A stretch of 58,063 nt of DNA from Gammaproteobacteria bacterium TMED1 (GTDB taxonomy: Bacteria > Pseudomonadota > Gammaproteobacteria > Pseudomonadales > Azotimanducaceae), in contig NHBG02000016.1 of assembly GCA_002167855.2 (NCBI GenBank), positions 44,454 through 102,516 of the forward strand. Reading direction: 5' to 3'. Below, piece by piece: positions 4,543 through 36,056 of the stretch (position 1 is its first letter; each line of letters starts with the position of its first letter). The notes under the pieces were generated by a model, which saw only the letters and a list, made by a program, of their open reading frames with translations, was not told the DNA's origin and did not search any database. The translations under genes were made by a program, and so were the position numbers.

Positions 4543-4547
4543 TAGAA

Positions 4548-5036: not shown

Positions 5037-5123
5037 CTATTGACTGCAATACAGACCAAGATCTTTGATTGTTATTGTAAATTTCCAATAAGGTCGAGTC
5101 CATCCTTATCGGGGACGAAGGGA

Positions 5124-5152
5124 CTTGAATGAATCAGTGCTAACCCCAATCT
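5124..5152 (+). promoter_or_regulatory. Sigma-32 type heat-shock promoter for clpB
   Basis: CTTGAA at 5124-5129, a 14-base spacer, then CCCCAATCT at 5144-5152. This closely matches the known sigma-32 consensus (CTTGAA, 13-17 bases, CCCCATNT). It points toward clpB and gives a leader of roughly 45 bases. That it drives clpB is inference from motif and position. Confidence 0.8.
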
Positions 5153-5203
5153 ATCCGAATGATGGTATTTCAAACATTTTTTATAGTGGCCTGGGACTAA
5201 ATT

Positions 5204-7777
5204 ATGCGGTTAGATAATCTGACAGCGCAACTTCAAAAAGCAATCACTGATAGTGATTCCTGCGCGCTAGCGCGGAATCATAACTTTATTATGCCCCAGC
5301 ATTTACTGCTTTCGTTACTTCAGCAGTCTGGCGGTTCGGCTGAGCTCGCACTAAAAGGTTTAGGTGTAAATCTTAATCTATTTGTCGAAGATCTAAATCA
5401 TCAAGTTGATGAGCTACCTGTAGTACGTCATAACATTGGAGATATAAAAATATCTCCGGAATTAGTTAGAATTCTGAAGCTGGCAGAAAAAGAATCTAAT
5501 AAAAGAGGAGACCAATATATCTCCTCTGAAATTGCTTTTTTGGCCTTAAGCCAAACCTCGAATTGTCAGGAGATATTCAAAAAACACGGCATTACGCAAA
5601 CAGCATTGGAGAGGGTAATCGACGAGTTAAGAGAGGGTGAAAAAATTAATAGTCGTAATACGGAGGAAGGGCGGCAGGCCCTAGAAAAATATACCACAGA
5701 TCTTACCGCCAGGGCAGAGCTTGGGAAATTGGATCCAGTAATCGGTAGAGATCGTGAAATCCGGCGTACCATTCAGGTTTTACAACGTCGAACTAAAAAT
5801 AATCCAGTACTGATTGGTGAGCCGGGCGTTGGCAAAACAGCCATAGCGGAAGGGTTGGCGCTGCGCATTATCAACGATGAGGTGCCTGAGGGATTAAAAA
5901 ATAAAAAAATTCTTTCACTTGATATCGGGTCGCTTTTAGCAGGTGCTAAGTTCAGAGGGGATTTTGAGGAGCGCTTAAAGGCTGTTCTTCATTCTCTCTC
6001 CCGAGAAGAAGGAAGCACCATCTTGTTTATTGATGAGCTTCACACAATGGTAGGGGCTGGTAAAGCTGAGGGATCTTTGGATGCGGGGAATATGTTGAAG
6101 CCCGCTTTGGCTCGAGGAGAGTTACATTGTGTGGGTGCAACAACGTTAGATGAATACAGGCAGTATATAGAATCAGATGCCGCGTTGGAGCGACGATTCC
6201 AGAAGGTGTTAGTTGAAGAACCAACAGTTGAAGATACGATTGCTATACTGCGGGGACTAAAGGAAAGGTACGAAATCCATCATGGCGTTGACATCACGGA
6301 CCCCGCAATCATCGCAGCAGCTCGTTTGTCCGAAAGGTATATTTCTGATCGACAATTACCGGATAAAGCAATTGATTTGATAGATGAGTCAGCGAGTCTC
6401 ATTCGTATGGAAATGGACTCGAAACCAGAGGACATGGATCGGCTTGAAAGACGACTCATTCAGCTAAAGATTGAAAGGGAGGCATTGAAAAATGAAAGCG
6501 ACCCTGCGTCTATTCAACGTTTGAGTGAGTTGGAGGGTAATATAAATGAATTACAGCAAGACTTTTCGGAGCTCGAAGACTTACTGGCAAGTGAGAAGCT
6601 ATCTTTACGGGGGAACCAACAGGTAAAGCAAGATCTTGAAGATGCCAAACTTGACATGGAGACCGCTCGGCGTGCAGGTGACTTAAGCAGGATGTCAGAA
6701 TTGCAGTATGGCATCATTCCGGGACTTGAGAAAACACTGGAAAATACGGTGGACCTCGATATTTCATCAATGAAGTTATTACGTAATAAAGTGACCGAGG
6801 AAGAGATCTCTGAAGTCGTATCGAAATGGACAGGTATACCTGTTTCAAAAATGCTTACCAGTGAGAGAGAAAAACTGCTGGGACTTGAAAGCGAGTTGCA
6901 TAAACATGTCATTGGTCAGAATCAGGCAGTTTCTGCTGTCTCTAATGCCGTTCGCAGGGCCCGTGCTGGACTCTCAGATCCAAATCGTCCTAATGGATCT
7001 TTCTTATTTTTGGGCCCGACGGGCGTCGGAAAAACCGAGCTGTGTAAAGCCCTAGCTCGTTTCCTATTTGATACAGAAGGCGCGCTAGTCAGACTTGATA
7101 TGTCTGAGTTTATGGAGAAGCATTCCGTTGCACGACTTATCGGTGCGCCGCCGGGATATGTTGGCTATGAGCAGGCAGGCTATCTAACTGAGTTGGTGAG
7201 ACGCAAACCTTACTGTGTAATTTTACTTGATGAGATAGAGAAAGCCCACAGCGACGTGTTCAATATCCTATTGCAGGTTTTTGAAGATGGGAGACTAACA
7301 GATAGCCGTGGTCGAACGGTTGATTTTAAGAATACCGTCATAGTAATGACATCAAATTTAGGTTCCGATGTAATACAAGATTTAGCCGGCGCCGACTACA
7401 AAGAAATCCACGGCTCGGTAATGGGTATTGTTAGAAAGCACTTCACTCCTGAATTGCTTAATCGTATTGATGATTCAGTAGTTTTTCATGCGCTTACTAA
7501 AGACCAGATACGGTGTATTGCTAAAGCTCAGTTAAATCTTCTAAGAGATCGATTGTTAGAAACTGATATTTCTATCAAGTTTAGGGATGAAGCGATCTCG
7601 TATATTACTGACAAGGGATATGATCCAGTATATGGAGCTCGACCGCTAAAAAGGGCAATTCAGAAATTCATAGAGAACCCACTATCACAAGCATTACTAG
7701 AAGGTCGGTTTGTGCCCGAAGATGAAGTCTCGATTATAGTGCGCGACGGTTCACTTGAGATCGAGCGAAATAATTAG
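5204..7777 (+). CDS. clpB: ATP-dependent disaggregase ClpB
   Basis: Hsp100 chaperone that extracts polypeptides from heat-induced aggregates together with DnaK. Its 857 residues are the usual length. Order of domains: Clp N-domain (about 1-150), first AAA+ module with Walker [10 protein letters not shown] (about 205-213) and Walker B FIDELH (about 274), coiled-coil M-domain rich in Glu/Leu/Arg (about 405-525), second AAA+ module with Walker [10 protein letters not shown] (about 604-612) and Walker B LLDEIEK (about 673), and the sensor-2 region [15 protein letters not shown] near the C-terminus. The M-domain separates it from ClpA. It is a single gene behind a heat-shock type promoter. Confidence 0.97.
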
Positions 7778-7866
7778 ATAAGTTTTGAATTGCTTTCCCG
7801 GACAACGGCCTAGAACTGAGTTCAAAGGGCGGCAGCAGTTCTGTACAAATAGTCATTTTTAATATA

Positions 7867-7882
7867 CTGTATATATATACAT
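7867..7882. promoter_or_regulatory. Near-perfect LexA (SOS) box
   Basis: CTGTATATATATACAT at 7867-7882 matches 15 of 16 positions of the LexA consensus CTGTATATATATACAG known from gammaproteobacteria, the only difference being the last base; the preceding TA also matches. It ends 22 bases before the ATG of the small gene at 7905 and overlaps the only space where its promoter could lie. LexA control of that gene is inferred. An alternating TA tract can imitate part of the box by chance, but the flanking CTG and CA are not explained that way. Confidence 0.65.
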
Positions 7883-7904
7883 ATTAAATTAAGGTAAGTC
7901 GAGT

Positions 7905-8165
7905 ATGAGCATACAAATCAATCACCCGAGCTTGGCGATGCAGGCTGCCCAACGTATGAGAAAAGTAAGGCACAAAAGAAAAAACAGCCGCGTGATTTGT
8001 CATCATCTAAAGATGATGCTTGAGGCCAGAGAGCCTTATTTAGTTCAGAATAAAAATGAGCGTGGTCGGTTAGCGGTTGATGTTGACGTGGGAACAAAAG
8101 AGCGCCACCACATCGGTCAAGGCTTACCTTCCGTAAAGCAATATGCTTTCATGCTAAGTTGCTAG
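7905..8165 (+). CDS. Small basic protein of unknown function, possibly SOS-regulated
   Basis: An 86-residue protein I do not recognise. It is strongly basic in its first half (QRMRKVRHKRKNSR at residues 16-29) with several histidines, has no hydrophobic segment or signal peptide, and ends in a single cysteine. The basic stretch would suit nucleic-acid or membrane-surface binding, but no known domain is visible. A LexA-type box lies 22 bases upstream and a weak purine-rich AAGGTAAG precedes the ATG. It is a lone gene between clpB and a flavoprotein gene. Whether it is truly translated is uncertain; the regulatory site is the main argument in favour. Confidence 0.5.
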   Translation: MSIQINHPSLAMQAAQRMRKVRHKRKNSRVICHHLKMMLEAREPYLVQNKNERGRLAVDVDVGTKERHHIGQGLPSVKQYAFMLSC

Positions 8166-8697
8166 GCTACTTTTTCTCTCCTTAACGAAGGCAAGTTGCG
8201 GCGCTTCGCACTCAAATTTTTCGAAGATGGCATTCAAAATTGGCCCCATAGACGTCGACACTATTCCAAGTTTTCGTACACCATCAGTATAGCGATGCCT
8301 CGAGATTTCGACTTAACGGGCGATCCTACTTCGCGCGTCTTGCATTAGGCTGCTTGCTTCTCCGGTTTAGGGTGCTTTAGGTAATCGCTCTCGTTTTTCG
8401 TTGATGCATTACTTATCAATAGGCTTAGTAATATACCTTGTATCGTTAAACTATTAGAAAAGCTTCCTAATTATTTATTCATCATAGTAGCCCAGGCGTT
8501 AGCTAACGAGAGAGAAGAACCGTTTAGCGTCACGAGCTTATTGATCTTTCTAGACGCTTGTAACCGTAGTACAGAGTGTATCCATCTCTGAACTACTTAA
8601 TAGAGCATCTGTTGGGTATATATTTCCTGCTACTACTAGAGATAGGATGATGTGCCGACTCATGAGATAATACTTGAAGGTTAATACTGGGTTAAAC
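8166..8697. other. Intergenic region before the flavoprotein gene
   Basis: About 530 bases with frequent stops in all frames as far as read by eye. No tRNA, clear terminator or long inverted repeat was recognised. The promoter of the downstream oxidoreductase presumably lies in its right part, but no convincing -35/-10 pair stands out. Confidence 0.4.
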
Positions 8698-9816
8698 ATG
8701 GATTATATTCATACCTGCGTAATTGGGGGCGGAGTTGTAGGATTAGCGGTAGCTAGAAACCTCGCTACCTATGGCCGTGATATTGTTGTTTTAGACAAGG
8801 AATTGAAATACGGGCAGGGTGTTAGCAGTCGGAATAGTGAAGTTATTCATGCGGGAATTTACTATCCACCAAAATCCCTTAAAGCTGAATTGTGTGTTCG
8901 TGGGAAGCAACTGTTATATGAATATTGCGAGGAACACCAAGTTGAATATAAACGTTGTGGAAAGCTGATCGTCGCAACAGAGGCGGCTGAGGAAGAAAAA
9001 CTAAGTGAAATTCTTGAAAACGCGGATGCTAATGGGGTGCTCGATCTGGAATTTTGGTCCTCAAGGAAGATAAAAGCAGAAGAACCAAATGTCAGGGCCA
9101 CGTTAGCCCTATTCTCGCCATCCACGGGTGTGATTAGTAGCCATGATTTGATGACCTCATACCTGGCTGATATCGAAGCATGTGGCGGTGTTTTCATTGG
9201 GGGATCTCTTGTGAGAGGTATTGAGCCAGTGAATGAGCGTTTTGTCGTTAATTGTGATCTGGGGGGAGAATCTTATACTTTTGAGTGCAGTGTGCTGGTG
9301 AATTCAGCGGGTCTCGGGGCGCAAACTATAGCGGAAAATATCGCTGGTCTGGAGCAAGGTGTCGTTCCAAAGCTCCATTACTGTAAGGGAAATTACTTCG
9401 TGTTCGCGGGTAAATCGCCCTTTTCGCATTTAATCTATCCAGTCCCAGAACGATCGGGAGCAGGTCTCGGTGTGCATGCAACAATAGATATAGCGGGTCA
9501 GGTAAAGTTTGGTCCGGATGTGGAATACATAGAAACAGAGAGCTACAAAGTCTCTGATAATCGTCTCGATGATTATTACAAGGCTGTCCGTCGATACTTT
9601 CCGAGCTTGGGTGACAGTCAGTTAACGCCCGGGTATGTTGGAATTCGCCCCAAACTACAGGGCCCAAATGAACCCCCAAAAGACTATGTGATACAAACCG
9701 AGAAGGAGCATAATATACCGGGCTTGGTACAATTATTCGGCATTGAGTCTCCGGGATTGACATCCTCCTTAGCTATCGCCGAAGAGGTTCGTCTTGCAGT
9801 TTCGGAGGTTTACTAG
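8698..9816 (+). CDS. FAD-dependent oxidoreductase, L-2-hydroxyglutarate oxidase/dehydrogenase-like
   Basis: DAO-family flavoprotein resembling LhgO (YgaF), which oxidises L-2-hydroxyglutarate to 2-oxoglutarate and feeds electrons to quinone or oxygen. The FAD-binding GGGVVG lies at residues 10-15 after a beta-strand start. SSRNSEVIHAGIYYPPKSLKAELC is the segment typical of the L2HGDH group, and the C-terminal IRPKLQGPNEPPKDYVI and GIESPGLTSSLAIAEE segments fit the same group. ATG at 8698 is chosen over the in-frame TTG at 8674 because it puts the nucleotide-binding fold at the usual distance from the N-terminus. It is monocistronic; the substrate is inferred from family likeness and related 2-hydroxyacids remain possible. 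Confidence 0.82.
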   Translation: MDYIHTCVIGGGVVGLAVARNLATYGRDIVVLDKELKYGQGVSSRNSEVIHAGIYYPPKSLKAELCVRGKQLLYEYCEEHQVEYKRCGKLIVATEAAEEEKLSEILENADANGVLDLEFWSSRKIKAEEPNVRATLALFSPSTGVISSHDLMTSYLADIEACGGVFIGGSLVRGIEPVNERFVVNCDLGGESYTFECSVLVNSAGLGAQTIAENIAGLEQGVVPKLHYCKGNYFVFAGKSPFSHLIYPVPERSGAGLGVHATIDIAGQVKFGPDVEYIETESYKVSDNRLDDYYKAVRRYFPSLGDSQLTPGYVGIRPKLQGPNEPPKDYVIQTEKEHNIPGLVQLFGIESPGLTSSLAIAEEVRLAVSEVY

Positions 9817-10077
9817 AAGGGTTTAGGAGAGCACCTAGAACGATCAGTTCCCAAGTCTAATATGAGCTAGAAGCTTTCTCATGCTGTTAATGAAAATAGG
9901 TGTAGATTACCAATAATAAACAGCTAGCTCACAAGTACGCTACAACCTATAACTCACATAATAATTAGGGTGTAAAGTATTGTTTTCCATTATATTGTTA
10001 TTTAAAAAAAGGTTCGGTAATCTTTGGTTATCGCTTTGTGTTAGATTGCTCACCAGTAAAAAAGATGGAGGCTGAAT

Positions 10078-10734
10078 TTGTTTGAATTAGTCCAGGCGGG
10101 AGGGTGGCTGATGGCACCGATTATTACCTGTTCTGTGATCTCGGTTGCTATTTGTTTCGAAAGGTTTTGGTCACTGAGATCAAGTCAAATCCTACCGAAA
10201 AATCTTCTTGCCAAGGTTCTGAATTGGATAAAAAATAATGAGTTAGATGCTAAACGTTTCAAATCACTTAGGAATGGATCACCCCTTGGGAAGATTCTGG
10301 CTGCAGGTGTAATGAATCATCGTCGGGGAAGAGACGGCATGAAAGTCAGTTTAGAAGAGGCCGCAAATGACGTCATACATGACCTGGAGCGATACTTAAA
10401 TACCCTCGGAACTGTCGCTGCAATTTCGCCTTTGCTGGGTCTTTTGGGTACTGTTATTGGTATGATCAAGGTTTTTACAACGATTAAAATGGAAGGCACC
10501 GGGAACTCAATGTTACTCGCGGGCGGAATCTCTGAGGCGCTGATAACCACCGCAGCAGGGCTTACCGTAGCTATTCCAAGCCTATTTTTCCATCGCTTTT
10601 TTCAGCGCCGTGTTGATAAGCTCGTGATTGATCTTGAGCAAGAATCTTTAAAGCTCGTTGAGATTATGCAGAACAAGGATTTTGATCTGTCCGATGCCTC
10701 TAGGTACGATGTTTCGGCGACTAAAGTCAAATGA
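10078..10734 (+). CDS. exbB: MotA/TolQ/ExbB proton-channel family protein
   Basis: Inner-membrane proton-channel subunit that with ExbD energises TonB-type transport across the outer membrane. It has 218 residues with three transmembrane stretches (about 10-30, 110-131 and 157-179), and the conserved LLGLLGTVIGMIKVF and EALITTAAGLTVAIP segments of the family. The start is TTG with GGAGG six bases upstream. Its stop overlaps exbD in an ATGA, so the two are coupled, and the operon continues into msbA-lpxK. TolQ is less likely because tolR/A/B are absent and this position next to lpxK is occupied by exbB in Pseudomonas-like genomes. Confidence 0.9.
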   Translation: MFELVQAGGWLMAPIITCSVISVAICFERFWSLRSSQILPKNLLAKVLNWIKNNELDAKRFKSLRNGSPLGKILAAGVMNHRRGRDGMKVSLEEAANDVIHDLERYLNTLGTVAAISPLLGLLGTVIGMIKVFTTIKMEGTGNSMLLAGGISEALITTAAGLTVAIPSLFFHRFFQRRVDKLVIDLEQESLKLVEIMQNKDFDLSDASRYDVSATKVK

Positions 10735-11147
10735 GATTTCCTCGTCGTAATAGGGATACGTTAGAAATTAATCTCACCCCCCTGATAGATGTCGTATTCT
10801 TACTTCTTATTTTTTTTATGGTCTCGACCACGTTTAGTAAGGAGACTCAGCTTGTTATTGATCTACCCGAGTCTTCGATCGAGGAGACTTCGCTGGAAGA
10901 AGAGGTAGTCGATATATCAATATCTAAAAGGGGTTCGATAGCCGTGAATCAGAGGCTTATCTTGGATGCAGATTTAGATTCTCTGATCGCAGCGATTACT
11001 AAAGTAAGTGGGACCAAAAATACCGTACCCATAGTCATTAGCGCCGACGCAGAAACCCCGCATCAATCCGTCGTAATGGCAATGGATGCGGCGGGAAGGT
11101 TGGGTTTTACTAAAATTAAGATATCTACAAAACATGTCCAGCCTTAA
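10731..11147 (+). CDS. exbD: Biopolymer transport protein ExbD/TolR family
   Basis: Partner of the upstream ExbB in the proton-driven motor. Its 138 residues comprise a short cytoplasmic N-terminus, one transmembrane helix (LIDVVFLLLIFFMVSTTF, about 18-35) carrying the channel aspartate at D20, and a periplasmic domain ending with SADAETPHQSVVMAMDAAGRLGFTKIKIST, typical of ExbD. The ATG overlaps exbB; the 3' end overlaps the proposed msbA-lpxK start by 14 bp. Confidence 0.93.
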   Translation: MRFPRRNRDTLEINLTPLIDVVFLLLIFFMVSTTFSKETQLVIDLPESSIEETSLEEEVVDISISKRGSIAVNQRLILDADLDSLIAAITKVSGTKNTVPIVISADAETPHQSVVMAMDAAGRLGFTKIKISTKHVQP

Positions 11148-14016
11148 AAAGTATGAGGTTTCCGCGGTTATCTCCGATAGAACGGATACTGGAATATACC
11201 GGAGGCTACTAGCGTATGTATTTCCTTACTGGATACCTTTTTTTGTAAGCATTCTTGGTTACCTTTTATTTTCTTTTTCTAACGTAGCATTCGTTCAACT
11301 CATAAGTTATATCGTTGATTCTCTCCAAGGAAATGATCCATTACAGGAAGGTGGATACGCTAATATTTTATCTGATCTGTTGGGTCCGGCTGAATCGCTC
11401 AATCGAACTATCATTCCCGTGGCTATAGTCTTTTTGGTAGTTATGCGAGGGGTAGGCACTTTCGTTGGGGATACCTTCATAGCCTATGTCGCCACTAATT
11501 TAGTGCATGATTTGCGAAGACAGCTTTTTAATCAAATGATGCATTTACCAACTAGTTTTTTTGATTCTAGCCAGCAAGGCCATCTGGTCGCCAAGGTTAC
11601 CTTCCATGTAATGCAAGTAACTGGAGCGGCCACGGATGCCGTTAAAATAATCATCCGAGAGGGTTTCACTGTAATCGGCTACCTAGTGTTTTTACTTTAC
11701 CTCAATTGGAAGTTGACACTTATACTTTTAACCGTTGCTCCGATGATAGCGATTCTAGTAAAAATGGCCGGTATAAGATTCCGTCGAATCAGTCAGAAAA
11801 TCCAGCAATCCATGGGGGACGTTACTCATGTTGTCTCTGAGGCTGTTCAAGGACACCGAATCGTTAGAATTTTTGGTGGCACAGAGTACGAGAAAAAGCG
11901 CTTTGAAAAAGCTAGCAATACTTATCGACGCCAGTCTTTAAAAATGGTTGTGACGGCCTCTATCGCCACACCGGCAACGCAGCTTTTGGTAGGTCTCGCG
12001 CTTTCGGGTCTTGTTTGGTTATTGCTTGACCCAGCAGTATTAGGTTCGATGACCCCAGGAAAGGTTATTGCTTTCATTACGACGGGAGGCTTGCTAGCCA
12101 AACCGATTCGTCAATTGGCAGAAGTTAATGCTACCGTGCAGAAAGGGCTTGCTGCTGCTGAAGATATCTTCGACTTATTTGACGAGAAAAGGGAGAATGA
12201 TGACGGTACTGAAATACTGAAAATTGTTCGGGGCGAGGTAGAGTTTCGGGATGTGTCATTCCGCTATGCTAGTGATCTTCCAAATGTTTTGGAGGCCCTC
12301 AGTTTTCATATTAGCCCTGGCGAAACGATCGCACTGGTTGGAAAGTCCGGTAGTGGAAAAAGTACCCTTGCAAGTCTAATCCCACGATTCTACTCGCCGA
12401 CTAAAGGATCAATATTAATAGATGGAAAGCCAATCGATAGCTTATCTCTAGCGAATCTGCGTCAACATATTGCGATTGTTACTCAGGATATCACTCTATT
12501 TAACGACACAATAACCAGAAATATTGCTTATGGAAATCTCAATCATTTTAATAGAGATGAAGTAATTGAGGCTGCTAAAAAGGCCTATATTTGGGATTTT
12601 ATCGCAGGTCTCGACCAGGGTTTAGACACAGCCATAGGAGACGATGGAGTTCTCCTTTCTGGAGGTCAAAGGCAGCGATTAGCGATAGCTAGGGCTTTTT
12701 TGAAAGATGCACCAATATTAATTTTGGACGAGGCCACTTCTGCATTAGATTCGGAATCAGAAAGTTATATCCAATCGGCCCTTGAAGAGGTAGTCAAAGG
12801 AAGAACCACATTGATTATTGCTCATCGCCTATCCACTATTGAAAAAGCAAATCGAATTTTAGTCATTGATGAGGGGAGAGTTATTGAACAAGGAACCCAC
12901 TCAGAATTATTAAGAAAGAGTGGGCACTATGCCCATTTACACACGCAGGTTTCGAAAAATAAAAAACATCAAGATTTGGAGGAAACGGAACAAAGATTGA
13001 CCCCTCTTCGTAGAAGCACAGAAAGTAAAAGTGAGGTTTTTAATCCATTAGTGCAAGCTTGGTATTCAGAATCTTCCTTATTGTATCTACTTTTCCCTCT
13101 AGCACTAGCTTACGAAAGGATAGTTAAATTGAGAAGGCGAATGCTGGAGGCAAATCAAGTAAGGACAAGAGTGCCTGTTGTTATCGTGGGAAATATAAAT
13201 GTTGGTGGGACCGGTAAAACGCCTCTTGTTTTATGGATCGTGGAGCAACTCAAAAAGCATGGGTTCACCCCCGGCGTCGTTAGCAGAGGATACGGTGGGA
13301 CCTCCAAGCAATACCCAATTGAGGTTAGTAGCTCATCTGATCCCGCGCTAGCTGGAGATGAACCGGTTATGTTATCACGACGACTTGGCGTCCCAGTTGT
13401 AGTAGACCCTGATAGAGTACGTGCGGTTGAATATTTAGATGATAATTTTGATTGTAATGTAGTGGTAAGCGACGATGGCTTGCAACATTACCAGTTGTAT
13501 CGGGACATAGAAATCTGCGTTATAGATGGACGAAGAGGACTGGGTAATGGTCACTGCCTTCCCGCTGGACCGCTTCGGGAACCTACTGAAAGATTAAAAG
13601 AAGTGGATTTCATTGTAACCAAAGGAGATCTTTCTCAGAAAATCGATGTAAACAGTACAGCAATGCAGATGAAATCAATCGATCTTGTCAATATTTCCAC
13701 GGGGCGAAGGATTTTAACCAAAGACCTGCCTTTTGCCAGCATTCACGCAGTGGCAGGGATCGCAAATCCGACACCGTTCTTCAATACGCTCCGTGAACTT
13801 GGCTTTGAAGTTGTAGAACATGCCTTCGCTGATCATCATCGCTTCAGAGCAGAAGATCTCTACTTTGAGGACAAACTCCCGGTTGTGATGACAGAGAAAG
13901 ATGCGGTGAAGTGCGAGCGCCTTGATAGTCATAATGCATCACATTGGTACCTCGAAGTTAGTGCAATATTGCCCGATACTTTTATAGGTCCCATTCTAAA
14001 TAGAATTGCGCAATAA
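11134..14016 (+). CDS. msbA-lpxK: MsbA-LpxK fusion: lipid A flippase joined to tetraacyldisaccharide 4'-kinase
   Basis: One uninterrupted frame of 960 residues holds two enzymes of lipid A biogenesis. Residues 1-609 are MsbA, the ABC flippase of lipid A-core: six transmembrane segments in the first 320 residues, Walker A GKSGSGKST (about 403-411), signature LSGGQRQR (about 507) and Walker B LILDEATSALD (about 527). Residues 610-635 are a charged linker. Residues 636-960 are a full LpxK, which phosphorylates the lipid A precursor: membrane-anchor start WYSESSLLYLLFPLALAYER, P-loop VGGTGKTP (about 690), VVSRGYGG, SDDGLQHYQL and VMTEKDAVKC. The genes are separate neighbours in E. coli. ATG at 11134 gives a normal MsbA N-terminus; an in-frame start at 11086 is less likely. 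Confidence 0.92.
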   Translation: MSSLKKYEVSAVISDRTDTGIYRRLLAYVFPYWIPFFVSILGYLLFSFSNVAFVQLISYIVDSLQGNDPLQEGGYANILSDLLGPAESLNRTIIPVAIVFLVVMRGVGTFVGDTFIAYVATNLVHDLRRQLFNQMMHLPTSFFDSSQQGHLVAKVTFHVMQVTGAATDAVKIIIREGFTVIGYLVFLLYLNWKLTLILLTVAPMIAILVKMAGIRFRRISQKIQQSMGDVTHVVSEAVQGHRIVRIFGGTEYEKKRFEKASNTYRRQSLKMVVTASIATPATQLLVGLALSGLVWLLLDPAVLGSMTPGKVIAFITTGGLLAKPIRQLAEVNATVQKGLAAAEDIFDLFDEKRENDDGTEILKIVRGEVEFRDVSFRYASDLPNVLEALSFHISPGETIALVGKSGSGKSTLASLIPRFYSPTKGSILIDGKPIDSLSLANLRQHIAIVTQDITLFNDTITRNIAYGNLNHFNRDEVIEAAKKAYIWDFIAGLDQGLDTAIGDDGVLLSGGQRQRLAIARAFLKDAPILILDEATSALDSESESYIQSALEEVVKGRTTLIIAHRLSTIEKANRILVIDEGRVIEQGTHSELLRKSGHYAHLHTQVSKNKKHQDLEETEQRLTPLRRSTESKSEVFNPLVQAWYSESSLLYLLFPLALAYERIVKLRRRMLEANQVRTRVPVVIVGNINVGGTGKTPLVLWIVEQLKKHGFTPGVVSRGYGGTSKQYPIEVSSSSDPALAGDEPVMLSRRLGVPVVVDPDRVRAVEYLDDNFDCNVVVSDDGLQHYQLYRDIEICVIDGRRGLGNGHCLPAGPLREPTERLKEVDFIVTKGDLSQKIDVNSTAMQMKSIDLVNISTGRRILTKDLPFASIHAVAGIANPTPFFNTLRELGFEVVEHAFADHHRFRAEDLYFEDKLPVVMTEKDAVKCERLDSHNASHWYLEVSAILPDTFIGPILNRIAQ

Positions 14017-14037
14017 TATTATTTTTTGGCTCCTCTC

Positions 14038-14217
14038 ATGACAATAGACAAAAAACTAATAACGCTCTTAGTTTGTCCAATCTGTAAAATGGAACTCGAG
14101 CACCAAAAACAACCAGAAGAATTAATTTGCCGTTTTCACAAACTGGCATATCCCGTAAGGGATGGAATACCAATTATGCTTGTCTCTGAGGCGAAACGGT
14201 TAACCACGGAAAAGTAA
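14038..14217 (+). CDS. ycaR: Trm112/YcaR-family small zinc-ribbon protein
   Basis: A 59-residue protein of the Trm112-like family found between lpxK and kdsB in many gammaproteobacteria. It has the CPIC pair near residue 13, then ELICRFHKLAYPVRDGIPIML, closely matching E. coli YcaR. The related archaeal and eukaryotic Trm112 activates methyltransferases; the bacterial role is not settled. ATG at 14038 is chosen; an in-frame TTG at 14026 lacks a better ribosome site. Its TAA shares one base with the kdsB ATG, so the two are coupled. Confidence 0.9.
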   Translation: MTIDKKLITLLVCPICKMELEHQKQPEELICRFHKLAYPVRDGIPIMLVSEAKRLTTEK

Positions 14218-14999
14218 TGGGTGGTTCAGACCTAAACTTTGTCGTCGTTATTCCAGCTCGCTATGGGTCAACCAGATTGCCAGCAAAAGTTCTCCTAGAT
14301 ATTGCAGGCAAGCCTATGATCCAAAGGGTGTACGAGCAAGCAAAAAAAAGCAAGGCTAGGGATGTCATCGTTGCGACTGATGACTCTCGAATCGGATCAG
14401 TAGTGAAAGGATTTGGAGGGGTCGCCTGCCTTACCGCTACAACTCATAAATCTGGTACAGATAGAGTGCAAGAAGTGGCTAGGACGTTTGGTTTATCCGC
14501 GGATCAAATAATTGTGAATGTGCAGGGAGACGAGCCATTAATCCCCCCAGAGGCAATTAATCAGGTTGCCAGGGATTTGATTGCTAAGGATGCCCAGATT
14601 GCAACACTTGCTGAGGTGATCACCGAGCTCGCGGAGTTTCAAAATCCTAATGTAGTAAAAGTTGTTCTAGATGAAGACGGCTATGCGCTCTACTTTAGCC
14701 GAGCTCCAATTCCATGGATGCGCACAGATGACTTAGAAGAGCAGGTCATGTTGCCAAAAAATGATCAGCTCCACGCCCTGAAACATAGAGGGATTTATGC
14801 CTACAGAGTATCACTTCTGAATGAATATATTACCTGGGATGAAAGTGGGCTTGAGCAAATTGAGAAGCTTGAGCAACTGAGAGCTCTAAGCCATGGGATC
14901 AATATCTATATTGGTATTAGTAAACGACCGATACCCCCTGGGGTTGATACAGAGCAGGACCTTCGCCGAGTTGTTGAGGTGATTGAGAAAAAAATTTAG
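14217..14999 (+). CDS. kdsB: 3-deoxy-manno-octulosonate cytidylyltransferase (CMP-Kdo synthetase)
   Basis: Activates Kdo with CTP so that it can be attached to lipid A. At 260 residues it is close to the usual length. Landmarks are VVIPARYGSTRLPAKVL at the nucleotide-binding N-terminus, VATDDSRI, VQGDEPLIPPEAI with the metal-binding Asp, LYFSRAPIPW, HRGIYAYR and LEQLRAL. It starts within the ycaR stop codon. Some relatives lie next to a tyrosine phosphatase gene (ptpA) at this point; here murB follows directly. Confidence 0.96.
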   Translation: MGGSDLNFVVVIPARYGSTRLPAKVLLDIAGKPMIQRVYEQAKKSKARDVIVATDDSRIGSVVKGFGGVACLTATTHKSGTDRVQEVARTFGLSADQIIVNVQGDEPLIPPEAINQVARDLIAKDAQIATLAEVITELAEFQNPNVVKVVLDEDGYALYFSRAPIPWMRTDDLEEQVMLPKNDQLHALKHRGIYAYRVSLLNEYITWDESGLEQIEKLEQLRALSHGINIYIGISKRPIPPGVDTEQDLRRVVEVIEKKI

Positions 15000-15039
15000 T
15001 GGGGGATAACTAATTAATAAAATTTTTCCAAATTATGAG

Positions 15040-16026
15040 TTGCGTGAATTTAATACGCTGAAACTGAATTCTAGAGCTGAGAATTTCTGTTGTATCACCA
15101 ATGAGGCCGAGCTAGAGAGAGTCTGCGACTTTGTGCAAAAAAAATCTCTGCGACTCAACATAATTGGAACTGGAAGCAATGTAATTTTGCCCGAGACTTT
15201 GTCTGGTTTGACCATAAAAATCGATATTCGAGGTATAAGATATGGTCCAACCGAGGGGATGGTCTCAATTGGAGCGGGGGAGAATTGGCACGGACTGGTA
15301 CTGGATACGATTAACCACAACTTTAGTGGTTTAGAAAACTTGTCTTTAATCCCGGGTACCGTTGGTGCGGCTCCGATCCAAAATATTGGCGCATATGGAG
15401 TCGAACTCTCTGATTTTTTTCTATCGCTACGAGCTATAGATGTCTCCACAGGAGATTGGATTAACTTTGCGAAATCTGACTGTAAATTTGGTTATCGGGA
15501 TAGCATATTTAGGAATTCTAGTCGATATGTTATTTCTTCAGTGACACTTAAACTGCACTCTGAATTTAATCCGATACTCAATTATCCGGGAGTTAAAGAA
15601 GCTTTAGAATTTAATAATATCCAGTCTCCAAATGCTCAGGATTTAAGCAATATAATATCTAAGATCCGAGAATCAAAGCTTCCAAATCCTAAGCGGCTGC
15701 CAAATGTAGGCAGCTTTTTTAAAAATCCCATAATTTCTAGGGACAAATACAGAGAATTGAAGCGTGACTTTGATAATCTCCCATGTTGGGAACAACCGGA
15801 TGGTATGGTCAAGATTTCTGCAGCGAATATTTTAGATAGCCTAGGCTGTAAGGGTTATTCCGAGGGTGCTCTCGAAGTATCTAAGTCACACAGTCTTGTA
15901 ATCGTTAACCATGGGAAAGCAGTAGAGCAAGACGTTAGGAATCTTGTAGGTAAATTGAAAGCACTTGTTTACGAGAGGTGTGGTATTCAATTAATCGTGG
16001 AACCCATTTTCATCAAGTCTCACTAA
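15040..16026 (+). CDS. murB: UDP-N-acetylenolpyruvoylglucosamine reductase MurB (start uncertain)
   Basis: Flavoenzyme that reduces UDP-GlcNAc-enolpyruvate to UDP-MurNAc in peptidoglycan synthesis. It has 328 residues from TTG 15040. Recognisable are the FAD-site GTGSNVILPETLSGLTI, LSLIPGTVGAAPIQNIGAYG, GYRDSIF with the active-site Arg, NVGSFFKNP with the proton-donor Ser, and the terminal LIVEP with the catalytic Glu. The frame is open upstream to 15010 and family alignment suggests about ten more residues, but no ATG, GTG or TTG exists there. A GTGGGGGA ribosome-like site precedes an ATT at 15013, so an unusual ATT start is possible. Confidence 0.9.
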   Translation: MREFNTLKLNSRAENFCCITNEAELERVCDFVQKKSLRLNIIGTGSNVILPETLSGLTIKIDIRGIRYGPTEGMVSIGAGENWHGLVLDTINHNFSGLENLSLIPGTVGAAPIQNIGAYGVELSDFFLSLRAIDVSTGDWINFAKSDCKFGYRDSIFRNSSRYVISSVTLKLHSEFNPILNYPGVKEALEFNNIQSPNAQDLSNIISKIRESKLPNPKRLPNVGSFFKNPIISRDKYRELKRDFDNLPCWEQPDGMVKISAANILDSLGCKGYSEGALEVSKSHSLVIVNHGKAVEQDVRNLVGKLKALVYERCGIQLIVEPIFIKSH

Positions 16027-16074
16027 ATTTTATAGAGTAGCGTCTTAATCATAATCAATCTCGGACGGGCCAAC

Positions 16075-18684
16075 TTATTCCTCGCGCTCGACTCCGTCTT
16101 CATCTTCGACGAGAGGATGGCTCTCAGCAGAAATTCCAATTTCAGACTGCTGCTCGAGCAAAGTCTCACCCAGATCGCCTTGGCTTTTTGTCTCCTTTTC
16201 CTTTCGAGTTATGGGCAAAGGAGGATCATTATCAACAACATCTGTTATAAGAGGGGGCTTACCTTCTCTGTAACCTCTTGGATCGTTCGCAACTCGTCCC
16301 CAGGTACTCGGATGGTGGGAATCAAGATGTGGACCTTGGTAACTTAAAACTTTTGGAGATTGGCGTGGTTCGGCGTCAAGTAGCACAATATCCGTGCGGG
16401 GCTGACTGGGCCTTATTCTTGGATCATTGGTGGGTCTTGCCCAGAGCCATGGCTCGTGAATTGAGTCTGGTTCTAATACCTCTTGATCTTGTTTTTTATC
16501 CGCTGCGTGACAGTCACTGGAAATAATAGGGTCTCGTGAATTCGCGCCCAAGTCGGCAGAGGCTGCTTGAATTACTGACTCGCTAGGCGTGTGGGTGTTT
16601 TCTGACTGCATTAAGGCATCTTGAGACTTGGTTGTTGAGTTCTGAGACCGAGGTTTTCGTTGGGCTCGTTGGCGTTGACCACGATTACGTTTATCATTTG
16701 AATTTTCTTGTTCATTCTTTTTATCTTGATTGCCGGCTACCTGTTGATTGTCAGGCGGCTCCTTATACTTTTCCGGTTTTTGACGATTGTCATCCTTTAC
16801 TTTGATATCGTGCCTACGTTTAACTTCTTTTTGGCCCTCCAAATTTTGTTTCGAATCAACATTAGCTTTTTTCTGACTAGGGTGAGACTTCTTCACAGCA
16901 TCCTCTAACGTTTTGTCTCGGTTTAAGTCAGTTCTTTTGCGGGAACGGTTAGGTGGACGCTGGCGTCGAGCTCCTAATTTAGTTTTACGCCGTGGAGACC
17001 GCGATACAGGCCGCTTAGAGGGTAACCTAAACAGTCCAATAAACTGAGACCACAAACTTGTTTTTTTGGGAAGTTTCTTGACTGGATCAGGAGTAATAGC
17101 TTGAACAGCTGCTTTCTCAGGAGGTTGGCTTGAAAAATTCGTCTTCGTCGGTAATAGCTCTGTTTCGTCGGTACTACTCATTTCATAACTCGCGGTTGTT
17201 TCATCCGATTCATTTTCGCGAATTCTTTCTACTCTATAATGGGGTGTTTGCATCTCGGGTTCAGGGACCACAACAATTCTGACCTTATTACGCTGTTCAA
17301 TTTCACTCAAAATATTGCGCTTTTCATTCAGCAAGAAAGATGAAATTGCAATCGGTAAGAAAGCTCGTATCTCTGTACTAGTTTCTTTTAATGCTTCCTC
17401 TTCAACAATACGAATCACCGCTAATGCTGTCGACTCCACATCTCTTATGGAGCCAAGTCCGCTACATCGGGGGCAAACGATACCGCTTGTTTCTCCCAAG
17501 GAGGCCCGAAGCCTTTGCCGTGACATTTCCAATAAACCAAATTTTGAAATTCGTCCTATCTGAATTCGTGCGCGATCTACCTCTAAAGCCTCTCGCATTC
17601 TATTCTCGATAGCACGCTGATTCTTTGCAGATGTCATATCAATAAAGTCAATTACAATGAGACCGCCTATATCCCTCAATCGAAGTTGCCGACAGATCTC
17701 ATCTGCAGCCTCAAGGTTTGTATTTAAAGCTGTTTCTTCTATATCCGACCCTCTCGTGGCCCTTGCAGAATTTATATCGATAGAAACTAGGGCTTCTGTG
17801 GGGTCGATAACCAACGAGCCGCCAGAAGGCAATCTCACTTCTCTCTGGAAGGCTGTTTCGATTTGCCCTTCAATTTGATAACGATTGAAGAGAGGGACAT
17901 CGCTGTCGTAGAGTTTGATCCTATTTTTGTATTGAGGCATTACCTGTTCAATGAATTCGGTCGCTTGGCTTTGTGCATCCTTGGTATCAACAAGTATTTC
18001 TGCAACATCATCGCGAAGGTTATCTCTCACAGCGCGAGTGATAACGTCGCTCTCTTGAAATATTAAAAAGGGGCTTTTGTTTTCTGCCGCCGCCTTACTA
18101 ATAGCTTCATTCAATTGAATCAAATAATTCAGGTCCCACTGCAACTCCTTGGCACTTCGTCCAAGACCCGCTGTACGTATAATCACACCCATATTCTTCG
18201 GAATATCTAGGCTTGATAGGGCTTCTTTCAATTCATCTCTTTCTTCGCCCTCAATGCGTTTTGATATACCGCCAGCACGAGGATTATTTGGCATTAGTAC
18301 TAGATACCTTCCCGCTAGACTATAGAAACTTGTTAGCGCGGCCCCCTTGTTACCCCTTTCCTCTTTGTCCACCTGGACAATAATTTCTTTTCCTTCCTTG
18401 ACAACTTCTTGGATGTTTATGCGGCCCCTGATTTTAGATGGAGCAATAGAAAAATATTCTCTTGATATTTCTTTAAGGGGAAGGAATCCATGACGATTTC
18501 CCCCGTAATCTACAAAGGCGGCCTCAAGACTTGGCTCGACCCTTGTAATACGGGCTTTGTAAATATTGGCCTTCTTTTGTTCTCTTGATCGGCTTTCTAT
18601 GTCCAGATCATAAAGTTTTTGCCCGTCAACTAGGGCAACGCGCAACTCTTCATCATGAGTTGCATTAATTAGCATACGTTTCAT
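16075..18684 (-). CDS. rne: Ribonuclease E
   Basis: Essential endoribonuclease and scaffold of the RNA degradosome, acting at the inner membrane. Its 869 residues comprise a catalytic half with the start [21 protein letters not shown], an S1 domain (about 35-125), catalytic aspartates in SIDINS (about 303) and VIDFID (about 346), and the zinc-link CPRCSG (about 404). The C-terminal half from about 520 is disordered, rich in Arg/Lys/Gln/Asn and then acidic, as expected for the RNA-binding scaffold. It carries two copies of an NDPR motif ([10 protein letters not shown] and [10 protein letters not shown]), short motifs I recall from Pseudomonas RNase E. It is convergent with murB and divergent from rluC, the arrangement known from many gammaproteobacteria. 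Confidence 0.97.
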
Positions 18685-18777
18685 TACAAGATCACTTTAA
18701 ATGAATCCCTATGCGAATTGATATCGTCAAAGTTAAGCTGTATCGATTGAATACCAGCTGCTATCTATTATCTACCC

Positions 18778-18794
18778 GAAGGCGTGACGCCTTC
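18778..18794. repeat. Perfect hairpin in the rne/rluC divergent leader
   Basis: GAAGGCG, three-base loop, CGCCTTC: a perfect 7-bp inverted repeat about 95 bases upstream of the rne start and about 300 upstream of rluC. In the rne transcript it would lie in the 5' leader. E. coli RNase E regulates its own mRNA through leader hairpins, so a similar role is conceivable but only inferred. No T-run follows on either strand, so it is not a terminator. Confidence 0.45.
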
Positions 18795-19089
18795 AGAAGT
18801 GCATTTTATTCTGAAGCTGCCCGGAAGCTAGGGGATCAACATCAACTTCAGTCAATTTTTTAGATTTCTTCTCTTGCCAATAACTTTTTTGACGTTACAT
18901 TCACAATCTCGGGATTGCGGTTAATATCGCCCAGCACATCAATTTATCTGGGTCGAAAAAATTCTTGGTTGATTGTGCCGGGCTAAAGCCTCAGCATTAC
19001 ATTACCAAACCCTAAGAGGAAGCACCTGCACGGTGCAAAAATCTCCTCCCAAGTGCAATGATAACGAAAAACATCGAGTTCTCAAAGTC

Positions 19090-20046
19090 ATGGATAAAAA
19101 GCGAGATACTGCTCAGCGAGTCAGACAAGTCATTGTCGAACCGGACCACTGCGGACAAAGGCTCGATAATTTTCTCCAAAGAGAGTTGAAGGGCGTGCCA
19201 AAATCAAGAATTTATCGAATCATCAGGAAGGGTGAAGTGCGCATCAATGGAAAGAGAGGGAAGGCAAGTACACGGCTGTTTTCTGGTGACACCGTAAGAG
19301 TACCCCCGATACGTAGCTCGACTAAAGCACTACAAAAAACGAAGTTGCAAAGTTTGGAAGAAACAATAATTTACGAGAATAAATCCATAATTGTTATTAA
19401 CAAGCCGCCAGGTCTTGCTGTCCATGGGGGGAGTGGTATTTCGATGGGTGTCATAGAAACTTTTCGTGCCAATTCTTCGACAGCAAGCTCTCTTGAGCTC
19501 GTTCATAGGTTAGACAGAGATACCTCAGGATGCTTAATGATCGCAAAGAATAGACGTTATTTAAAAGTCCTACAGAGTGCTTTAAGGGCAACATCGATAA
19601 TAAGAAAAAATTACAGGGCAATAGTCCATGGGAATTGGCCGTCCAGATTGGGTTTTATTGATGCGCCTATAAAGAAAAATTCACTCAGTAGTGGTGAAAG
19701 AATCTCTAAAGTTTCAGAAAGTGGCAAGACAGCAAGGACAGAATTTAGTGTTTTGGCCAGAGGCGGGGGGCTAACATTTCTCTCTGTCAAACCGATCACT
19801 GGAAGAACGCATCAAATCAGGGTCCATTGTTGTCATGTAGACAAACCGATTCTTGGTGATACAAAATATGGATATCAAGCTGAGGATGGTGCGATTTCAA
19901 AAATAGCTAACTCCTATAGACTTATGCTGCATGCAGAAAGTTTAGAGGTTCCACCGATTGAAGATTTCCCAGGATTCAGCGTCAAAGCGCCTCAGGATGA
20001 TGCGTTCTCAAGGGTGCTCAGCCACATGGCAGCCGGTAAAACCTAA
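19090..20046 (+). CDS. rluC: 23S rRNA pseudouridine synthase RluC
   Basis: Makes pseudouridines in 23S rRNA (positions 955, 2504 and 2580 in E. coli). It has 318 residues from ATG 19090: an S4 RNA-binding domain (GQRLDNFLQRELKGVPKSRIYRIIRKGEVRINGKR, about 20-60) and an RluA-type catalytic domain with HRLDRDTSG carrying the catalytic Asp (about 141) and GRTHQIRVH. The frame extends upstream to 18973, but those 39 residues have no family counterpart, so the internal ATG is preferred. It is divergent from rne, and its 3' end overlaps the convergent yceF by 4 bp. Confidence 0.94.
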   Translation: MDKKRDTAQRVRQVIVEPDHCGQRLDNFLQRELKGVPKSRIYRIIRKGEVRINGKRGKASTRLFSGDTVRVPPIRSSTKALQKTKLQSLEETIIYENKSIIVINKPPGLAVHGGSGISMGVIETFRANSSTASSLELVHRLDRDTSGCLMIAKNRRYLKVLQSALRATSIIRKNYRAIVHGNWPSRLGFIDAPIKKNSLSSGERISKVSESGKTARTEFSVLARGGGLTFLSVKPITGRTHQIRVHCCHVDKPILGDTKYGYQAEDGAISKIANSYRLMLHAESLEVPPIEDFPGFSVKAPQDDAFSRVLSHMAAGKT

Positions 20047-31607: not shown

Positions 31608-32627
31608 TTAGCCTTTGGCATACCCTAAGGGATTATGTTTTTGCCAATTCCATGCGTCTCGACAGATATGCTCCAAAGTCCCTGTAGCTTTCCAATGTAA
31701 TTCCTTGTTTGCTTTTGTTGGATCAGTGTAGCACTCAGGAATATCGCCAACTCGCCTTGGGCCAAATATGTAAGGAACCTTTACTTTATTTACCTCTTCA
31801 AAAGTATGTATTACCTCTAAGACTGAAGAGCCCTTTCCAGTGCCTAGATTATATATCACTACACCAGGCCCCTCTTTAAGTTTAGTGAGGGCAGCGAGAT
31901 GTCCCAATGCAAGATCGACCACATGAATATAGTCGCGAATACAAGTCCCATCGCGCGTTAAATAATCTTTACCGAAAACAGTGAGCTCTTTCCGTCTCCC
32001 AGCAGCGCACTGGCTAATATACGGAACCAAGTTGTTTGGAATCCCATTGGGATCCTCGCCAATATGGCCACTTTGATGCGCCCCACCCGGGTTAAAGTAT
32101 CTCAGTATCACTGCATTCCACTGTGGATTGCTGTCACTTATATCCATCAAAATCTTTTCAATAATTAATTTAGTTTCCCCATAGGGATTGGTCGTACCTG
32201 TAACTGATGATTCCTCTTTAATAGGAAGTTCTGAAGGATCTCCATATACTGTTGCCGAAGATGAAAATATTAGATTGTGAACTCCGTGATTCACCATTGC
32301 ATTACAAAGATTTATGGTTCCAGAAATATTATTTTCATAGTAAGTCAGTGGGTTCTCTAATGATTCTGAAACGGTCTTCAGCCCAGCTAGATGGATGACT
32401 GTATCAAAATCGTGTTGTTCAAAAAGCTTGCTTAGTTTCTGTCTATCAAGCAAGTCCATGGGCAAAAACTCTACATGCTTATCCGTAAGTAGCTCAACTC
32501 TCCTAACTGCCTCAAAAGAACTGTTTACGAGGTTATCAATTACAGTGACGTCGATAGACTCTTTGATAAGCTCCAGTAAAGTGTGGGAGCCAATGTAACC
32601 CGCTCCACCTGTCAACAAGACCTTCAT
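31608..32627 (-). CDS. galE: UDP-glucose 4-epimerase
   Basis: Interconverts UDP-glucose and UDP-galactose for cell-surface sugars. It has 339 residues: NAD-binding TGGAGYIGSHT (about 6-16), the SSSATVYGDP segment with the catalytic Ser, YGETK with the Tyr-Lys pair (about 149-153), and the GalE-specific RYFNPGGAHQSGHIGEDPNGIPNNLVPYI and GTCIRDYIHV motifs. Its ATG overlaps the stop of the upstream HAD gene, so the two are co-translated. Confidence 0.95.
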   Translation of the reverse strand: MKVLLTGGAGYIGSHTLLELIKESIDVTVIDNLVNSSFEAVRRVELLTDKHVEFLPMDLLDRQKLSKLFEQHDFDTVIHLAGLKTVSESLENPLTYYENNISGTINLCNAMVNHGVHNLIFSSSATVYGDPSELPIKEESSVTGTTNPYGETKLIIEKILMDISDSNPQWNAVILRYFNPGGAHQSGHIGEDPNGIPNNLVPYISQCAAGRRKELTVFGKDYLTRDGTCIRDYIHVVDLALGHLAALTKLKEGPGVVIYNLGTGKGSSVLEVIHTFEEVNKVKVPYIFGPRRVGDIPECYTDPTKANKELHWKATGTLEHICRDAWNWQKHNPLGYAKG

Positions 32628-33280
32628 CTTATTGGAAAGTTTAAATGTGCTTGGAGATCGTCCAGAGCTTGGCTGCTGCTTACTACTTTTATCGTAAACA
32701 TTCCCATAGCTCGTGCTGGTTTGAGATTTACTCCCAGATCATCAAGGAATATAGCTTCACTTGGAGCGATGGCTAATTGATCGCAGGCGATTTTATATAT
32801 TCGAGGATCGGGTTTCCTTACTCCTAATTTGCTAGACTCAATCACGACATCAAATAGATTTAGGACTTCTTCCATGGCCTCAGCTCTCTTAGGGTTTCTG
32901 GCCATACCAGCCCCGCTCCCCGAGAGCATATTATTAGTGATGCATCCTATAGTCAGTTTGTTCTTGAGTATCTTCAGAGTTTCAACCATTTCGGGTCGAA
33001 TCTTACCAGCAATTAAAGAAAGTACTGTCTTGCCACAAATGCGTTGACCAAGTAGTTTCGATTCTTGAGAAAATTTTTGATCGAACTCGTCAACTGTTAT
33101 TTCATTGCGCTCAAACTGGGCCCAAGCATTAGTATCAGGATTTTTTGAATTTACCGTCCTTATAAAATCGATTGGAAAACCATTTTCTCTCTCATATTGG
33201 TTAAAAGCTTCAAATGGACTACTAGTTATCACACCCCCAAAGTCCCAAAGAACAGCCTTAATCATAATTGAAATCCCCAT
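32624..33280 (-). CDS. HAD-superfamily phosphatase (subclass IA, YihX/epoxide-hydrolase-N-like)
   Basis: A 218-residue haloacid-dehalogenase-fold hydrolase. Motif I reads WDFGGV, with the nucleophile Asp kept and Gly where many HAD phosphatases have a second Asp, a form also seen in YihX-like sugar phosphatases. Motif II Thr is in ITNN, motif III Lys in GVRKPDPRIY and motif IV in FLDDLG. ATG 33280 is preferred because GGAGAG lies eight bases upstream; ATG 33265 is an alternative. Pairing with galE suggests a sugar-phosphate substrate such as glucose-1-phosphate, which is inference only. Confidence 0.85.
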   Translation of the reverse strand: MGISIMIKAVLWDFGGVITSSPFEAFNQYERENGFPIDFIRTVNSKNPDTNAWAQFERNEITVDEFDQKFSQESKLLGQRICGKTVLSLIAGKIRPEMVETLKILKNKLTIGCITNNMLSGSGAGMARNPKRAEAMEEVLNLFDVVIESSKLGVRKPDPRIYKIACDQLAIAPSEAIFLDDLGVNLKPARAMGMFTIKVVSSSQALDDLQAHLNFPIR

Positions 33281-33411: not shown

Positions 33412-34185
33412 ATGAACGTCATTCACAGATCCTCCATCGTCGACCAAAAGGCGATACTTGGGACGAATATAGAAATTGGTCCCTTCTGCACTGTAGGTCC
33501 TGGCGTGAAAATAGGAAATGGTTGCAAATTGGTCTCGCACGTGGTGCTCGACGGGGATACAGATATTGGAGACCGAAACACCTTTTACCCCTTCGCAATT
33601 ATAGGTGCTGAGCCACAGGATAAAAAATATCAGCAATAAAAGACCGGTTTGTTCATAGGTAACGGAAATGTATTCCGCGAGTCGGTCTCAGTTCACAGAG
33701 GTACTGTTACCGGAATTGGAGAAACTCGGATTGGTGATAATAATTTGATTATGGGATTTGTTCATGTTGCTCATGACTGTGTGCTCGGCAGTAACAATAT
33801 TCTAGCGAACTATGTCGGGCTAAGTGGTCACGTCACAATAGACGACAACGTAACCTTGGGAGGTCAAACCGGTGTCGTGCAATTTTTGAGAATTGGATCT
33901 TATGCTTATGTTGGAGGGGCGTCGGTAATTGATAAAAATATACCCCCTTATTCATCCGGTTATGGAAATAGAATTGAGATTAAGAGCGTAAATATAGTGG
34001 GTCTAAAGAGAAGTGGCTTTTCGCGGGAAGCTATTGCCGCGATATCGGATGCTCACAAGCTTTACTTTAGGTCCGAGTTGTCGGAAACAGAGGCTTTGCG
34101 GCGCATTGGTGCGGAGTTGGGCGACTTTCCGGAGGTTCAGCTATTCACTAGTTTCCTTCAGTCAGTGGGTGGGAAAGTTCACTAG
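33412..34185 (+). pseudogene. lpxA: UDP-N-acetylglucosamine acyltransferase LpxA, interrupted by one in-frame TAA
   Basis: LpxA starts lipid A synthesis by adding a 3-hydroxyacyl chain from ACP to UDP-GlcNAc. The 5' part (75 codons) and the 3' part (from 33640) lie in the same frame with a single TAA at 33637-33639 between them. Aligned with E. coli LpxA there is no gap: the stop takes the place of a glutamate in the KYAGEPT region, which a single GAA to TAA change would explain. All else is intact, including left-handed beta-helix hexapeptides, the catalytic His in HVAHDC, and the C-terminal GLKRSGFSREAI. It could be a real nonsense allele, a sequence error or a read-through gene. No lpxD, fabZ or lpxB is adjacent; fabA-fabB follow. 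Confidence 0.85.
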
Positions 34186-34298: not shown

Positions 34299-34835
34299 AT
34301 GGCTCTACTAGATCGCTCATTAATTGGTAAGCATCAGTTTACCAAAGAAGAATTACAGGAATGCGGGAGGGGAACGTTGTTCGGTCCTGGACGAGCCCAC
34401 TTACCTGTTGGGAATATGTTGATGGTGGATCGGATTGTAGAGATAAATGAAGAGGGTGGCGTTGCGGGTAAGGGTAAGGTAATAGCCGAGCTGGATATAA
34501 ATCCTGACTTATGGTTTTTTAAATGCCACTTTATCGATGATCCGGTCATGCCCGGGTGTCTTGGGCTTGACGCGCTTTGGCAGCTACTCGGTTTCTTCCT
34601 CGCATGGAAAGGAAATGCAGGACTGGGCCGTGCTCTGGGATGCGGAAAGGTTAAATTCGGAGGTCAGATATTACCAAGCGCAGAATTAGTGAAGTACCAT
34701 ATAGATATAATTAAGCTTAGGGAAGGTAAGACTGTCATGGGCATTGCGGATTGTAGAGTATACGTGGACGGTAGTCAGATATATGAAGCTAAACAGGTTA
34801 AGGTTGGACTATTTACTTCTCTGGATGATTTCTGA
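34299..34835 (+). CDS. fabA: 3-hydroxydecanoyl-ACP dehydratase/isomerase FabA
   Basis: Bifunctional enzyme that introduces the cis double bond in anaerobic-type unsaturated fatty-acid synthesis. It has 178 residues with [20 protein letters not shown], the active-site His77 in [25 protein letters not shown] and the partner Asp91. The isomerase-type sequence separates it from FabZ. It lies 9 bp before fabB, forming the classic fabA-fabB pair seen in Pseudomonas and Alphaproteobacteria. Confidence 0.97.
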
Positions 34836-34844: not shown

Positions 34845-36056
34845 ATGAAGCGTGCAGTAGTTACAGGTATGGGATTGGTATCACCGCTAGGCAACAATGT
34901 GGTTGAGACAAAACAGTCGCTATTTAACACAACATCAGGAATTAAGTACCAGTCAGCCTATGAAGAAATGGGTCTAAGGAGCTTGGTTGCAGGAAGTATA
35001 GATATTGATTTAGATGGAATGATCGAGCGTAAACTACGACGTTTTATGGGGGATGCAGCAGCATTCTCTTTTATATCGCTGAGTGAAGCGATTGCTGATT
35101 CAGGTCTTGAGGAGTCTGATGTTTCGAACGAAAGAACAGGAATAGTAGCTGGATCGGGTGGAGCCTCTTCTTCCAATCTCACAGAAGCAGCAGATATTCT
35201 AAAAGAGAAAGGGCTGAAGCGTATTGGGCCATACCGTGTTACTAGAACTATGGGCTCTACAGTCTCTGCATGCCTTGCGACCCCTTTTAAGATAAAAGGA
35301 GTCAATTACTCCATAACTTCTGCATGTTCCACAAGCGCGCATTGTATCGGCCATGCTGTTGAACTAATCCAACTTGGTAAACAAGACGTGGTATTTGCAG
35401 GAGGGGGTGAGGAGGAACATTGGAGCATGACTTCGCTATTTGATGCAATGGGAGCACTCTCTACCGGTCGCAACGACCATCCAGAACTGGCTTCTCGGGC
35501 ATACGATAAAGATAGAGATGGTTTTGTTATTGCCGGTGGTGCGGGTTTTTTGGTGGTTGAAGAATATGAGCATGCGAGAGCACGGGGAGCAAAAGTTTAT
35601 GCGGAGATAGTAGGGTATGGGGCGACGTCGGATGGCTATGACATGGTGGCACCTTCAGGAGAGGGTGGTGAACGAGCGATGCGGATGGCGATAGCGACGG
35701 TTAATGAACCCATTGACTATATCAACGCTCACGGAACGAGTACGCCGGCGGGGGATCCTCCTGAGATTTCTGCTATATCCAGGGTTTTCGAAGAAAAAAT
35801 TCCCAAAATCAGTTCTACAAAGTCTTTGTCAGGACATTCCCTTGGCGCTGCTGGAGTTCACGAAGCTATTTATTCCTTGATTATGCTAGAAAATGATTTT
35901 ATCTGTGCATCAGCTAACATAGAAAACATCGATCCCTTATTTGAAGATATGCCAATAGTAAGAGTGCGTATAGATGGGGCTAATATTCGAACGGTAATGT
36001 CCAACAGCTTTGGCTTTGGAGGAACCAATTCCGTTTTAGTTTTCCAGAAGCTCTGA
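34845..36056 (+). CDS. fabB: 3-oxoacyl-ACP synthase I FabB
   Basis: Condensing enzyme that elongates the cis-3-decenoyl-ACP made by FabA. It has 403 residues: nucleophile Cys161 in [11 protein letters not shown], His in [11 protein letters not shown] (about 292-302), His in [15 protein letters not shown] (about 328), and a [15 protein letters not shown] ending. It pairs with fabA, which supports FabB rather than a second FabF. Confidence 0.97.

Follow-up and report, generated by a model that had tools for sequence, protein, structure and literature searches.

A lone in-frame stop codon in the only lpxA seen in Gammaproteobacteria bacterium TMED1 is probably a base error or a very young variant

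The only lpxA gene seen in the draft genome of the uncultured bacterium TMED1 carries a single in-frame TAA and is otherwise ordinary. We consider it likely (at a probability of roughly 0.75) that the assembly, drawn from a mixed population, has a consensus or sequencing error at this codon, or else that the TAA is a minor or very young nonsense variant in that population. Two results support this reading: lpxA was the only broken gene in about 110 compared with those of the nearest relative, and the age of the stop does not exceed about 2-3% of the branch that separates the two genomes. We infer, rather than see directly, that this base is an error or of very recent origin. Of the options listed in an earlier note, made from the letters alone, the best fit is that of a sequence error or polymorphism, as there is no relaxed selection past the stop and the assembly bears the marks of mixed strains.

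Results

The lpxA frame is complete except for one codon

In the window (the whole stretch of DNA that was analysed, 58,063 nucleotides) the forward frame at 33412-34185 encodes LpxA in 257 codons, with a lone internal TAA as codon 76 (Table 1). It translates as MNVIHRSS...PQDKKYQQ*KTGLFIGNG...VGGKVH* (stops as asterisks). AAG stands directly 3' of the internal TAA and the reading frame is not shifted; the earlier description of one in-frame TAA without a frame shift was thus seen to be correct at 33637-33639. When the frame was read through and compared with relatives, neither a frameshift nor a second lesion was found beyond the TAA. In a six-frame search with the stop read through, the frame matched TIGR01852 over positions 1-248 with 290.1 bits (curated cut-off 231.05 bits); each piece taken singly scored below the cut-off. 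An uninterrupted frame would be expected of a functional LpxA of this family, and here it is interrupted at codon 76.

Where in the protein does the stop fall? When aligned to E. coli LpxA (1lxa, query offset +4), it stands at Glu80, just past the loop residues Asp74/Lys76 and well ahead of the catalytic His125. The equivalents of Asp74, Lys76 and His125 were all found, spread over both pieces; the roles of the catalytic His and of the Asp and Lys in the GlcNAc loop have been described (PMC7072397, PMC6286764). By this alignment the stop site is the end of the loop that extends from coil 4 (described in PMC6286764).

Table 1. Features in and around lpxA, in positions of the window
Feature	Position	Strand	Remark
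galE, UDP-glucose 4-epimerase	31608..32627	-	syntenic in MED690 and G004
HAD-family hydrolase	32624..33280	-	syntenic in MED690 and G004
lpxA 5' part	33412..33639	+	75 codons, then TAA; covers the beta-helix coils as far as the extended loop; NF003657 90.5 bits alone
In-frame TAA	33637..33639	+	codon 76, equivalent to Glu80 of E. coli LpxA; relatives have Glu
lpxA 3' part	33640..34185	+	same frame, 181 codons and normal stop; catalytic His (His125 of E. coli)
TTG, first possible start after the stop	33649..33651	+	opens a 178-aa ORF; without a clear Shine-Dalgarno upstream
fabA, 3-hydroxydecanoyl-ACP dehydratase	34299..34835	+	neighbour common to the whole genus
fabB, beta-ketoacyl-ACP synthase I	34845..36056	+	family match

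The stop is absent from relatives and the codons beyond it are conserved

We compared the stop position across 112 lpxA homologues, which include a few duplicate loci of one genome. Glu occupies it in 100, Asp in 4, Thr in 4, Gly in 2 and Asn in 2. The codon in MED690 (G005; MAG record NZGG01000021), the nearest relative, is GAA, so the claim that the TAA stands where homologues have Glu was upheld. Aligning lpxA in relatives, a check that the earlier note had proposed, gave no internal stop in any of the 112. A pattern scan for the same stop site in viral contigs found nothing. MED690 LpxA is intact, has 257 aa and is 95% identical to that of TMED1; its gene is the only lpxA copy of MED690, and the gene order around it (galE, HAD, fabA, fabB) matches that of TMED1.

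Has the sequence downstream of the stop begun to decay? In comparison with MED690, the whole lpxA has a dN of 0.026 and a dS of about 2, which makes it one of the best-conserved genes in the stretch, and the 181 codons after the stop have a dN of 0.017 and a dS of about 1.7; these rates are rough, with synonymous sites near saturation. A decayed pseudogene would show relaxed selection or further lesions, whereas dN/dS past the stop is about 0.01 and no other lesion is present. Only 2-3 amino acid changes past the stop could be assigned to the TMED1 branch (polarised with the intact copy of the sister species G004), compared to the 250-410 expected if this part had been neutral along the whole branch. 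The 95% upper bound on the age of the stop is about 2-3% of the branch since the MED690 split. This leaves three readings: a very young stop, a downstream frame that is still translated, or a wrong base.

If the downstream frame is still translated, the stop would be real and enough enzyme would be made through readthrough of the TAA, or through termination followed by a new start at the TTG nine bases further on, with the fragments joining at the coil 4 loop. The undiminished constraint past the stop agrees with this, the TTG does open the downstream frame, and the break falls near Glu80, at the end of the extended loop (PMC6286764), where a cut might be tolerated. However, TAA is the commonest terminator in TMED1 (64 of 153 long ORFs, with TGA in 49 and TAG in 40) and so is apparently not reassigned; none of the 30 tRNAs has an ochre suppressor anticodon, in a tRNA set that is incomplete and from which several expected ones are missing; and no Shine-Dalgarno sequence is visible before the TTG. 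A stop that is read through or recoded should moreover be conserved in relatives, and the arrangement occurs in none of them (0 of 112). We therefore regard this explanation as very improbable, and the option of a codon that is read through, raised in the earlier note, found no support. Less probable still is a naturally split LpxA, in which translation would stop at codon 76 and restart at the TTG, and two fragments would rebuild the beta-helix trimer at the coil 4 extended loop. A split enzyme of this kind is conceivable, what argues for it being the geometry and the lack of decay, but residues of the extended loop bind GlcNAc (PMC7072397, PMC6286764).

A second lpxA was not found in the assembly

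The TMED1 assembly is a 2.16 Mb draft in 25 contigs and is 96.5% complete. A search with TIGR01852 found no second lpxA in it, not even a fragment. The two other matches of the LpxA search were LpxD, encoded in bamA-skp-lpxD-fabZ-lpxB (gene names from reading translations and from family matches), and a 173-aa hexapeptide-repeat protein, which was too short and too unlike LpxA to be taken for a second copy.

The sister species G004 does have two copies. Its syntenic lpxA (L114, G004:C138:5809-6551) has a frameshift ~5 codons past the place of the TMED1 stop and is without the catalytic His, as it reads HIACDC compared to HVAHDC (Cys for His). A second lpxA, on another contig (C164, L115), is intact and lies downstream of an aminotransferase-like gene on the opposite strand. 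The state of G004 suggests that the syntenic lpxA locus is open to decay in genomes with a second copy. At the matching place on contig 9 of TMED1 such a copy is absent.

The gene lies outside the lpx cluster, as had been claimed: on contig 8, fabZ directly adjoins lpxB, with no lpxA between them. The accompanying hint that this location favours a second lpxA is weakened, since lpxA adjoining fabA is the norm in the genus. The two genes are co-oriented in TMED1 (G000), in MED690 and in the broken copy of G004, whereas in G001, G002, G003 and G006 the lpxA beside fabA is far more distant in sequence (34-38% identity) and points the opposite way (L117, L118, L119 and L120). In these four genomes lpxA has apparently been replaced in place (L117-L120). 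Judging from these sequences, lpxA types with 34-38% identity between them have probably been exchanged within the genus.

Could the stop then be real and fixed, in a fresh pseudogene, with a functional second lpxA in the small part of the genome (a few percent) that the assembly lacks? G004 provides a precedent, with its broken syntenic gene and intact copy elsewhere, and the exchange of lpxA types within the genus fits as well. The assembly also has gaps, with the Tyr and Leu-TAA tRNAs among those not found in it, so a second lpxA could lie in the missing part. Against this stand the lack of any second copy or fragment in the assembly, in particular at the position that corresponds to the extra copy of G004, the single, syntenic lpxA of MED690, and the lack of decay past the stop. 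This is the main rival to an error or a young variant and is ranked second, but we consider it unlikely; LPS loss and recoding are ranked last. Both places in which the earlier suggestion of another lpxA was checked, the 96.5%-complete assembly and the G004 extra-copy position, were empty.

The rest of the lipid A pathway is intact

We found lpxC, lpxD, lpxB and lptD, all unbroken, in the TMED1 assembly. As these genes are intact, lpxA should be needed, and a true lpxA null would be expected to die or to pay a very high cost. The intact genes also speak against a third possibility, namely a real stop in sequenced cells that do without LPS. We know of no selective pressure for LPS loss in this organism. 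Under colistin, A. baumannii does survive without lpxA, lpxC or lpxD (PMC6330354, PMC5555675), and the family and order to which TMED1 belongs include some genera without early lipid A genes; even so, we consider LPS loss in TMED1 very doubtful.

Three of the relatives that are 94-100% complete, G016 and G019 from the same family and G044 from the same order, have LptD; LpxC and LpxB were unmatched, and LpxA and LpxD gave weak hexapeptide matches only. This pattern of matches suggests that these lineages may have lost early lipid A synthesis and kept the transport protein. G031 (100% complete) gave no match to LpxC, LpxB or LptD. Two full-length lpxC genes were seen in many genomes of the family (G007, G011, G015, G017, G018, G020, G021, G023, G024, G026 and G034).

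Other shared genes are unbroken, but the assembly bears probable marks of mixed strains

We compared about 110 ORFs (37,000 codons, roughly 140 kb) between TMED1 and MED690 in sampled stretches, with overlapping ORFs removed. Among them lpxA was the sole one broken well inside the gene; the remaining flagged ORFs were broken <=14 residues from the start or within about 5 of the end, or were paralogue matches. A generally poor assembly was rejected as an explanation, as there was no other internal break in these shared ORFs.

Outside the window, two 20-kb stretches from the contig of the window had 80 and 203 single Ns, other stretches had 2-11, and the MED690 stretches had none. Within ORFs they fell on the first, second and third codon positions 45, 25 and 139 times, respectively. 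Because they fall mostly at third codon positions, the Ns most likely represent real, mostly synonymous strain differences, and the assembly would be a consensus of a mixed population in which variable sites were masked. From the N pattern and the relatives, TMED1 is presumably a MAG.

Dense single Ns, again mostly at third codon positions, were seen on contig 7 at 1-20000 (L172) and from 102517 onward (L174). There are no Ns within the 58-kb window, and the base next to its right end is an N; dense Ns thus begin at the right edge of the window after 58 kb without any, and look like masked strain variation.

Two observations count against an error or a variant. The base at the stop is not marked as ambiguous and lies in a window without an N in 58 kb, and the lack of other nonsense in 37,000 codons means that the assembly is not sloppy at that level.

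Discussion

If the stop is an error or a young variant, one base would have changed a Glu codon to TAA in the sole lpxA that we saw in TMED1, the gene for UDP-GlcNAc O-acyltransferase, and most living cells would presumably carry the intact gene and make the first enzyme of lipid A synthesis from it. Were the stop fixed without a second lpxA, TMED1 would be a bacterium with the later lipid A pathway complete and its first enzyme absent, or with an essential enzyme in two pieces. The evidence favours a wrong base in the draft or a fleeting variant, and it calls for caution, as a gene can hardly be called lost on the strength of a single stop when the assembly is a consensus of mixed strains.

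How does the gene compare with known systems? With LpxA (TIGR01852/NF003657; E. coli 1lxa) the TMED1 frame shares a full-length match in one frame, the loop Asp and Lys, and the catalytic His; it differs by the in-frame TAA at the Glu80 position and by lying beside fabA and not between fabZ and lpxB. The LPS-deficient lpx mutants of A. baumannii (PMC6330354) are alike in that loss of function strikes the same early pathway, but they were selected by colistin in a pathogen, whereas nothing in TMED1 shows LPS loss. The lpxA pseudogene of G004 (C138) has the same place in the gene order and is broken in the same loop region; in contrast to TMED1, it has a frameshift instead of a stop, has lost the catalytic His and is accompanied by a second intact lpxA. 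Finally, lpxA of MED690 (NZGG01000021) encodes a 95% identical protein between the same neighbours, and its frame runs through without a stop.
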